Assembly: GCA_019218315.1 (NCBI GenBank)
Contig: JAHUUI010000001.1
Coordinates: 541,722 to 605,721 of the forward strand
From: Cardiobacteriaceae bacterium TAE3-ERU3
GTDB lineage: Bacteria; Pseudomonadota; Gammaproteobacteria; Cardiobacteriales; Cardiobacteriaceae
DNA: 64,000 nucleotides
Direction of reading: 5' to 3'
Under the pieces are notes generated by a model that was not told the DNA's origin, did not search any database, and saw nothing but the letters and a program-made list of their open reading frames with translations. Position numbers and translations under genes: made by a program. Shown here one piece after another: positions 13,863 to 55,901 of this stretch (within the stretch, counting starts at the first letter, position 1; each line of letters begins with the position of its first letter).

Positions 13863-14981
13863 TCACTTTTTATAGACAAATTCCCGGTGATGGATCAAGA
13901 ATTTAATATGGGATGCCTCTATACGGGTCAGCCCCATACCATGATGCAAACCCAATGCATGCTTATCAGCTTCACTCAGCGCTGTTGAAATCAACATACG
14001 ACCTTCGTCGTCAAAGCTGATGTAGCCCCGGTCAAAACAAATATCCAAATTTGGGGATAACAGTAGCCCGTTATAAGTGTCCAGTCACTCTGTATTATCA
14101 GACGCGCACCACGGTTTTATATGCGAAGCACGCAGTAAATCCACTGCCTGGCAGCCAGTAACAGCGCAGGCATTAGACCAATACTTCTTGAGTTCATCAC
14201 GAAACTTTCCTTGCCCTTTACGTGCCTTGATGAGAGATTCTCTTTCTGTTTCGCCATATACCTCGACATCGGTTGTTTGTGCTGGCTCTACTGTCACCTG
14301 AGTGTTGAGCATCCATGCGAAGCTGTGTGCATCCAATAATGTAACCGAACAAGATAATTTATCGGACAGCAGTAGCCTCAACTCATCCATAACCTCAAGG
14401 TAACGGCTGTAGTTTTCCCATGAACATCGACCGCTTAACTTCAAATCTACACCAAGCGAAGAAAAAGCTTGTTCAAAAAAAGTAGGCTTGACCGGCAAAT
14501 ACAAAGAGCAATCTTTAAGAAAGAACAGATAGGCAAGAAATGGGTATTTTTGACCAAATATACTGATAGCGTGGTCAAATGATGCGCCTTCATTCGTGCC
14601 GTAATAGATATTGAATAAGCAACGTTCTATTTCCGCTACATCTTCCTGTGTTTCTTGGGCAAGATAGAGCTTGTGATGCAAGCGACTTTCCGGTCCATAT
14701 TTACCATGCAAATCAAAGAAATTATTATTTTTGAGTTCTATGGCAGCGATAGTACAAGCAACTATTTTGCCACTACCGATATCTTGCTCATGCCATTTTT
14801 CTAATGCCAGCTTTTCCCGCGCAGTTTGATAAATCTCGTATTTATAGCCTTCGTGATGGTTAATAAAAGGATTTGAGATGAAAGACGTGAAGCGCATGCG
14901 TGATTCGTACTCAACAAATACCTTGAAAGCGCTGAACTGTTCGTCAAACAAATAAGGGTCAATAGCAAGAGATTCTGTCAT
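13863..14981 (-). pseudogene. HNH endonuclease gene interrupted by an in-frame TGA
   Basis: The frame starts at ATG 14981 and codes for a 298-residue product ending at a TGA at 14087-14085, inside the HNH nuclease domain (CAVTG, then SHIKPW, then SDNTE). Reading on in the same frame gives LDTYNGLLLSPNLDICFDRG and on to a stop at 13863, the expected second half of an HNH_2-type ββα-metal domain. The full gene would be 372 residues, and a CGA-to-TGA transition explains the break. The N-terminal 270 residues are of an unknown type that may read a specific DNA target. Truncation removes the catalytic Asn and metal-site residues, so the short product should be inactive unless the stop is read through. 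Confidence 0.8.
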
Positions 14982-53657: not shown

Positions 53658-54389
53658 ATGTGTAGCGCGATGTTTTTTGATTTGGTCGATCATTATTTCT
53701 CTGCTGAACGCGATGAAATTATCGCGCAGTTGCGCAAGCTTGCGTACAGGGATGATAGTGCATCAGTAGTAGCGCTGAATGATGTGATGACGGTACCGCG
53801 CTACAGCAGCGAATGGCTGATGGCAGAAATGCGCACATTGGGCACAAATCGGCGCATGATTGCCGCGTCGTTGATGCACAAAAAGCTGATGAAAGCGACC
53901 CTGACTACATGGCTGGCGGCGTATTTGCTCGGTGAGCAGCCCGCAAGTAATGGATTGGCGCTTGAGGTCGCTGCACCGCACCGGCTGCACTGGTCGAAAG
54001 ACACCAATCAAAACGTTGATCCTTATGATTTTCTCTCGGAACTGGCAACACAGTTTGTACGCCATATGTACGATATTCATCGCTTGTCGCCGGATATTGC
54101 TTTTGGTAATGCAGCGATGACGCTGGCGGTGCCGTGGTCAAAACTGGCAGGTTTTCGCCATGACGGTGAGGCAGTGATGGCTTCGGCAGAGCAATTTTTT
54201 GCGCGTTTATGCCCGGAGCTTGGAGCGATGCTTGAATGGCATGTATTGCATCAAAATGGGCAAAATGCAGCGTATGCACGGCGGCGCAGTTGTTGCCTGA
54301 AATATCGCGTTGAAGGCAAGACGTACTGCACGACGTGCAATAAAGTTGTGATTGAAGAACAACACGCCGCTTTACTCGCAAAATGGTGA
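53658..54389 (+). CDS. FhuF-like siderophore-iron reductase
   Basis: This 243-residue protein ends in the 2Fe-2S signature of FhuF, C-C-x10-C-x2-C, at about residues 213-228 (SCCLKY...YCTTC). FhuF-type reductases release iron from hydroxamate siderophores in the cytoplasm. The first 200 residues have the helical FhuF-like domain (VPRYSSEWLMAEM). ATG 53658 and ATG 53670 are both possible, with no decisive ribosome site; TATAAT at 53637-53642 may be its -10. It is followed after four bases by a DCC-family gene. It may serve the iron-uptake operon at 24.8-30.9 kb. Confidence 0.78.
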   Translation: MCSAMFFDLVDHYFSAERDEIIAQLRKLAYRDDSASVVALNDVMTVPRYSSEWLMAEMRTLGTNRRMIAASLMHKKLMKATLTTWLAAYLLGEQPASNGLALEVAAPHRLHWSKDTNQNVDPYDFLSELATQFVRHMYDIHRLSPDIAFGNAAMTLAVPWSKLAGFRHDGEAVMASAEQFFARLCPELGAMLEWHVLHQNGQNAAYARRRSCCLKYRVEGKTYCTTCNKVVIEEQHAALLAKW

Positions 54390-54393
54390 GGCC

Positions 54394-54807
54394 ATGAATT
54401 ATCGTATTTTTTACGATGCTGAATGCCCTATTTGCCGCTGCGGGATGGCGCATATCCGCGCGTGTAATATCAAAGGCAATTTGCATTCGTTAGCACTACA
54501 GGATCACCCTGATTTATTGGCTGAATACGGTATTGATACGGATGAAGCAATGATGATTTTGCATCTCGTCGATGACGACGGCAAAATTTATGCGGGCATA
54601 GCGGCTTTCCGTATTATTTACCGTGAAAATGGCTGGCGATGGTTGGCAACATTTTTGGGTTTACCAATCGTGCACCAAGTTAGTGGGTAGTTGTATCTGC
54701 TTATTGCTCGTCACCGTTACAAAATACCAGCGTGGCTGTTGCCCAAGGTCAAAGCAAGAGGGAATTGTCAGCAGGGCAAGTATTCGCATGAGTCGGTTAT
54801 AAAATAA
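54394..54807 (+). pseudogene. DCC-family (DUF393) thioredoxin-like gene with an in-frame TAG
   Basis: ATG 54394 (GAGG just upstream) starts a protein with the family signature YDAECPICRCGM (D-x-x-C-P-x-C) at residues 6-17. A TAG at 54688-54690 ends it at 98 residues. In the same frame, reading continues as LYLLIARHRYKIPAWLLP and stops with TAA at 54805-54807, and that C-terminal block is the usual ending of the family. A single G-to-A change of a TGG codon would explain it. The shortened protein keeps the Cys pair and may have partial function. It is probably co-transcribed with the FhuF-like gene. Read-through of the stop or a sequencing error are alternatives. Confidence 0.75.
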
Positions 54808-54938
54808 CACCATGATTTTTTTGTGTAAAAATCCATTTTTGGTATGTATTTGCATATAAATCATTAATATTATGCCTTGCATAGCATTTGACTTTGTGAA
54901 TAATAACTACCCCCTATTGTCAATAATGGATGGTTATT

Positions 54939-55901
54939 ATGAAATTACTCGCTCTTGCTGTTGCACTCGCTACAGGTAGCGCTGCTGCCGCCACTTCATG
55001 GAACATGGCGACCCCTTATGCGGACGGGGAATTCCATACCCAAAACATCAAGCAGTTTATTGATGATGTGAACAAGGCGACCGATGGTGAAATCGACATC
55101 ACCCTGCATTCTGGTGCGTCTTTATACAAAGCGCCGGAAATTTTCAAAGCAGTACGCTCGAATCAGGTGCAGCTCGGTGAATTGCTGGTATCCAGCCTCG
55201 GCAATGATGATCCGGTTTTTCAGGTTGATACCCTGCCGTTCCTCGCCACCAATTACGACGATGCGAAAAAGCTGTGGGCTGCATCAAAGCCTTATATTAC
55301 GGAAGCACTGAAAGAAAAAGGCGCGATTTTGCTCTACACCACGCCGTGGCCGGGGCAGAACTTCTACACTAAAGAGCCACTCAATAGCGCCGACGACCTA
55401 AAAGGCAAGAAGATGCGCGCTTATAACGCGATGACTTCCGGCATTGCTGCGCAGCTCGACGCTGCACCGACCACGATCGAAGTTTCAGATATTCCACAGG
55501 CATTCTCGACCGGACAAATCGACGCGATGATTACCTCAAGCGCGACTGGCGCATCTTCACAGGCGTGGGATTTCGTCAATAACTACACCCGCGTCAATGC
55601 GTGGTTGCCGAAAAACATGATTTTTATCAACGAGCGCACCTGGCGTCGCCTTGATGAAGCGACACAGCAGGCAATTCTTGACGCCGCGGCTGCTGCCGAA
55701 GCGCGTGGCTGGGAAATGTCTGCCGAGAAAAACGCCGCCAGCGAGCAGATTTTGGCTGAAAATGGGATGAACGTTGCTGATGCCAATGAAGCGCTGACCG
55801 AAGCCTTGACCGAAGTTGGCCACAATATGGCTGATGAATGGACGCAGGCTGCGGGTGAAGATGGCGCAGCGATTCTCGAAGCCTACCGCAGCAGTAAATA
55901 A
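54939..55901 (+). CDS. TRAP transporter substrate-binding protein (DctP-type)
   Basis: This 320-residue periplasmic protein has a signal peptide cleaved near residue 19 (AAA-ATS). The DctP fold shows the GELLVSSLGNDDPVFQVDTLPF segment in outline, the KMRAYNAM block with the conserved substrate-binding Arg near residue 160, and PQAFSTGQIDAM near 190. ATG 54939 is used; 54930 would add three residues. It is the first gene of a six-gene operon with TRAP membrane subunits and 5-oxoprolinase genes, so the cargo is probably 5-oxoproline (pyroglutamate). Confidence 0.88.
   Translation: MKLLALAVALATGSAAAATSWNMATPYADGEFHTQNIKQFIDDVNKATDGEIDITLHSGASLYKAPEIFKAVRSNQVQLGELLVSSLGNDDPVFQVDTLPFLATNYDDAKKLWAASKPYITEALKEKGAILLYTTPWPGQNFYTKEPLNSADDLKGKKMRAYNAMTSGIAAQLDAAPTTIEVSDIPQAFSTGQIDAMITSSATGASSQAWDFVNNYTRVNAWLPKNMIFINERTWRRLDEATQQAILDAAAAAEARGWEMSAEKNAASEQILAENGMNVADANEALTEALTEVGHNMADEWTQAAGEDGAAILEAYRSSK

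Follow-up and report, generated by a model that had tools for sequence, protein, structure and literature searches.

The question raised by this locus is whether a DCC-family gene that stops at an amber codon short of the C-terminus of its relatives ends there naturally or has been broken. The gene lies in a window of 64,000 nucleotides, the whole stretch of DNA that was analysed, which corresponds to C1:541722-605721 of the source genome (G000; 2,412,223 bases in 11 contigs, completeness 100, contamination 0.19, GC content 48.3% in the sampled part). We infer that this genome belongs to the Cardiobacteriaceae, the family of Cardiobacterium hominis. Translation from the ATG at 54394, which the stop codon of an fhuF-like gene precedes by 4 bases, gives 98 codons, the TAG, a further 38 codons in the same frame and a TAA (Table 1). 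The first-pass annotation had claimed this TAG as a second in-frame stop, ahead of the DCC C-terminus, and translation bears it out, as the peptide that it quoted, LYLLIARHRYKIPAWLLP, directly follows the amber codon. Promoter and terminator scans near the DCC gene gave site numbers no higher than those of shuffled sequences.

Table 1. Features of the DCC locus and of the other two broken genes. Positions are those of the window, except for the rhodanese gene, which is placed on contig C1 of the source genome (G000).
Feature	Position	Strand	Basis
FhuF-like gene, C-terminal 2Fe-2S domain (PF11575), no internal stop	53658..54389	+	Pfam match
DCC1-like gene (PF04134), open part: 98 codons + TAG, FYDAxCPxC active-site motif kept	54394..54690	+	translation, Pfam match
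In-frame amber codon TAG; 5 of 6 close relatives have Trp here	54688..54690	+	translation, alignments
Homologous post-stop remainder: second half of last helix and tail, TAA at 54805-54807	54691..54807	+	translation, Pfam, model
DctP-type solute-binding protein gene (PF03480), downstream neighbour of DCC gene	54930..55901	+	Pfam match
HNH_2-type gene (PF13391), one in-frame TGA at 14085-14087	13872..14981	-	translation, alignments
SseA-type rhodanese gene (PF00581) broken by amber codon	G000:C1:507138-508001	-	alignment

To assess the sequence on either side of the stop, the frame was compared with the PF04134 profile, for which the curated cut-off is 27.8 bits. Both forms exceeded this value: the open part alone scored 67.0 bits over positions 1-95 of the 113 in the profile, and the frame read through with an X at the stop scored 84.5 bits over positions 1-111, a gain of 17.5 bits. 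In an alignment of eight sequences, D8, C11 and C14 of the D-x2-C-x2-C motif near the N-terminus, which we take to be the source of the name DCC, were invariant, as were Y101, A105 and R108, all of which lie past the stop. Because of the gain in profile score and these conserved C-terminal Tyr, Ala and Arg residues, we regard the post-stop stretch as homologous to the family rather than as a chance likeness. The translated 98-residue product thus lacks a complete C-terminal helix with these residues. The 38 post-stop codons have codon-usage scores of -4.1 and -3.6, which are not coding-like but carry little weight over so short a stretch. The locus has the two marks of a nonsense pseudogene, in that its in-frame stop occupies an alignment column filled by a sense codon in intact relatives and homologous sequence follows it.

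We then examined the stop column in an alignment of 58 rows drawn from whole-genome and named-contig searches, in which two or more genomes occur twice and to which one search contributed at most 30 loci from its 51 matching genomes. Loci L007-L015 and L079 were left out of this set; some of L007-L015 are genomes of later loci, L011 is a short protein from another genome of the family (G006), L015 is a frame inside an apparent tRNA synthetase, and L079 has a stop inside the match. Across the 58 rows the column is occupied by Leu in 14, Trp in 9 (7 distinct genomes) and Ala in 8, with the others mixed. None of the 58 rows ends at this column, the shortest tail past it being 18 residues, and a natural family end at this position, which the first-pass annotation had proposed to look for among homologues, was thus rejected. 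The open length is 98 residues here and 117-139 in seven aligned relatives. The G006 gene (L072:1871-2152, - strand) encodes 93 amino acids and ends ahead of the last helix, with no recognisable remainder seen by eye in three frames. Four further matches with an internal stop (G220, G113, G185 and G295) all reach the tail of the profile, and their stops may be natural gene ends.

The nearest relatives form a subfamily with an ARHRY- or ARNRY-type ending, represented by six sequences, two of them from Cardiobacteriaceae (isolate S30M_Sa_23 and C. hominis) and four from Neisseriaceae (Neisseria sp. S18M_Sa_17, Conchiformibius sp., Alysiella crassa and Neisseria elongata). The stop column is Trp in five of these six and Leu in N. 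elongata, so that the Trp expected in relatives by the first-pass annotation is found in the close subfamily but not across the whole family, where it occupies 9 of the 58 rows. Likewise, the ending described there as typical of the family (ARHRY..P.WLLP) is typical of the Cardiobacteriaceae/Neisseriaceae subfamily but, judging from the 58-row alignment, not of DCC proteins as a whole. Identity of the window gene to the six relatives is 0.32-0.40 before the stop and 0.39-0.67 in the post-stop core, and among the six relatives themselves the corresponding values are 0.39-0.58 and 0.44-0.83. Disproportionate decay past the stop is thus not seen in the identities to these relatives; the two parts have diverged in step, with no sign of long decay, and the loss looks recent. 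A C-x4-C motif in the tail is present in all six close relatives and incomplete in the window gene, and given this the tail may already have been relaxed in sequence before the stop arose. The closest relatives outside the Cardiobacteriaceae are from Neisseriaceae (L102, L104-L106), with identities similar to those within the family, a likeness that may reflect gene transfer.

To place the stop in the context of the protein, structural models of the read-through and truncated forms were compared. The read-through model (mean pLDDT 85.5) places the CxxC at the start of a helix spanning residues 12-24 and the last helix at residues 91-106, with the stop, at residue 99, falling inside this helix and all predicted strands preceding it. 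The mean pLDDT of the last block is 93 in the read-through model (residues 91-100) versus 70 in the truncated model (residues 91-98), and that of residues 81-90 is 92 versus 77. The pTM is unaltered by truncation (0.75 for the read-through form, 0.76 for the truncated one). Fold comparison gave no match at E <=0.001, and the best rows, all weak, were a Xanthomonas campestris structural-genomics target and thioredoxin, glutaredoxin and glutathione S-transferase chains; a sequence search of solved structures returned one chance-level match (E 0.065).

The distribution and surroundings of the gene were examined next. The gene is patchily distributed in the family: among 11 other genomes, the 98-residue query matched three (G004, G006 and G010). 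The same-genus genome G001 (1,989,117 bases) returned no DCC match at any of the thresholds applied, E 1e-8 among them. G001 carries an fhuF relative with 41% identity, and a decayed DCC remnant behind this gene was considered and rejected, as the best local scores over six frames, 31-41 without a shuffled control, were taken as no signal. The only other DCC match in the source genome is an intact second gene on contig C2 (115 bits), which was judged by eye to fall in another subgroup than the broken gene. The nearest intact relatives within the family, from C. hominis NCTC10426 (NZ_LR134365.1; L107/L070) and isolate S30M_Sa_23 (L103/L071), share 35-40% identity with the window gene and the same ARHRY ending, but have MarR-type, DUF2269 and epimerase genes as neighbours, whereas the window gene instead stands behind fhuF. 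Contig C2 of the source genome has an epimerase/DUF2269 cluster, in which no DCC gene was seen over the 3.4 kb covered (L187). The context of the broken gene thus differs from that in C. hominis and S30M_Sa_23, and the gene is probably dispensable; this reading is accompanied by the intact second DCC gene of the source genome and the absence of a DCC match from G001. A scan for the FhuF C-terminal pattern found it in L016 and L017 only, and not in L070, L071, L018 or L102-L116; the pattern misses some cases, since L018 is itself an FhuF match. A search of the plasmid collection gave no match, and the genome collection yielded nothing confirmed with the 98-residue query and 28 loci with alignment A2 as query. 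A literature search found nothing on this DCC gene.

We also examined whether other genes of the source genome carry similar lesions. The break in an HNH gene, which the first-pass annotation had set beside that in the DCC gene, is real: the gene has a single stop, a TGA, at a column that in pairwise alignments to seven loci is Arg in five and Ser in two. In 464 kb of the source genome, a screen based on codon usage found 39 adjacent in-frame pairs. Twelve of these lack an early start codon; judged by eye, two of the twelve look like nonsense breaks, one in the HNH gene and one in an SseA-type rhodanese gene at C1:507138-507941 on the - strand. A stricter screen gave 37 pairs, and inspection of all of them picked the same two genes. 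The amber column of the rhodanese is Trp in 13 of the 14 loci examined; these were taken from 27 match rows in genomes other than the source, and some come from the same genera and are not independent. The screen is rough and missed the DCC gene itself. When 400 kb of G001 were screened in the same way, 36 pairs were found, and none of the five inspected was judged a nonsense break. With the numbers small and the window picked for its breaks, no rate of decay was drawn. The 'recent gene decay' of the first-pass annotation fits the Trp in five of six close relatives, the absence of relatives ending at the stop and the breaks in the HNH and rhodanese genes. At least two other genes thus carry a comparable single in-frame stop, but these are too few for a genome-wide pattern. 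Together, the DCC gene and the two other broken genes hint at some gene decay in the lineage, and such decay is common in host-associated bacteria.

We consider it probable that the DCC gene is dispensable and that a nonsense mutation recently inactivated it. The main rival, which we regard as unlikely, is a sequencing or assembly error, an artefact being the alternative that the first-pass annotation had also named; the gene would then be intact in the living cell, with a sense codon at this site. In its favour, the lesion is a lone substitution in an otherwise open frame, and conservation past the stop keeps pace with that ahead of it. It is opposed by the presence of such stops in at least three genes (DCC, HNH and rhodanese) and by the completeness and contamination grades of the genome, and in finished assemblies substitutions are a less frequent kind of error than indels. 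It seems improbable to us that the protein has newly come to end naturally at this stop and still works at 98 residues. The active-site CxxC and all strands precede the stop in the predicted structure, and the G006 gene ends even earlier, which suggests that a DCC protein lacking the last helix might be tolerated and so also speaks against a pseudogene. Yet in all 58 aligned rows, a set that does not include the G006 protein, 18 or more residues follow the column; the invariance of the post-stop Tyr, Ala and Arg in eight sequences and the position of the stop within a predicted helix likewise argue against a shorter functional form, and the post-stop sequence is still recognisable, so that any shortening would be new.

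Translation past the amber codon was also considered. A suppressor tRNA or a recoded UAG was rejected: the gene for release factor 1, prfA, is intact (520.4 bits, no stops), no CUA anticodon was found among the 42 tRNA matches in the genome, and TAG ends 51 of 397 long ORFs in the 464 kb sampled. ARAGORN, applied to less than the whole genome, assigned anticodons to 41 of the 42 tRNA matches, and the last, a truncated tRNA-Val(GAC)-like fragment, was read by eye. This fragment lies at G000:C7:65165-65238 (+ strand) and may be what is left of an integration site. tRNA-Ile and tRNA-Ala(UGC) were not seen among the 42, and the tRNA set looks incomplete, perhaps due to collapsed rRNA operons. Readthrough, in which some ribosomes would insert an amino acid at the UAG and the stop would tune expression of the full protein, finds some support in Belinky et al. 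2021 (PMC7918605), who argue that an in-frame stop in a bacterial gene is in many cases no mark of a pseudogene, and two amber codons of this genome fall at columns where most close relatives have Trp. The release factor, tRNA and stop-codon results above oppose it, as does the absence of this stop from all 58 aligned rows, and we judge it very unlikely. Still more doubtful is a broader version, in which amber codons at mostly-Trp columns in at least two redox/sulfur genes, the DCC and SseA-type rhodanese genes, would be partly read through to yield low or conditional amounts of full protein.

Recent inactivation of a dispensable gene thus remains the reading that we favour. A complete gene for a DCC-family thiol-disulfide oxidoreductase behind fhuF would have acquired a single stop in the codons of its last helix, and translation most likely ends at this TAG, giving a 98-residue product that would retain the CxxC and lose half of the C-terminal helix together with the tail. 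Such a product is probably unstable or inactive. Several observations weigh on the other side: the lesion is single, with no frameshift or deletion; the weakly negative post-stop codon usage and the incomplete C-x4-C, through which the tail was perhaps relaxed before the stop, argue against a pseudogene, as does the unchanged pTM of the truncated model. The loss of activity, the recency of the stop and the dispensability of the gene would be likely properties of the locus. Annotators should flag this gene as broken or check the stop against the reads; it should not be entered as a natural 98-residue protein.

Compared with the DCC1-like family (PF04134), the window gene shares a match over the cut-off, the CxxC, the post-stop Tyr, Ala and Arg and weak matches to thioredoxin-like folds, but differs in that a stop within the last helix interrupts its frame. 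With bacterial nonsense pseudogenes it shares a single in-frame stop, a homologous continuation and intact relatives, and no feature distinguishes it from them. The DCC locus is most likely an ordinary nonsense-broken gene.
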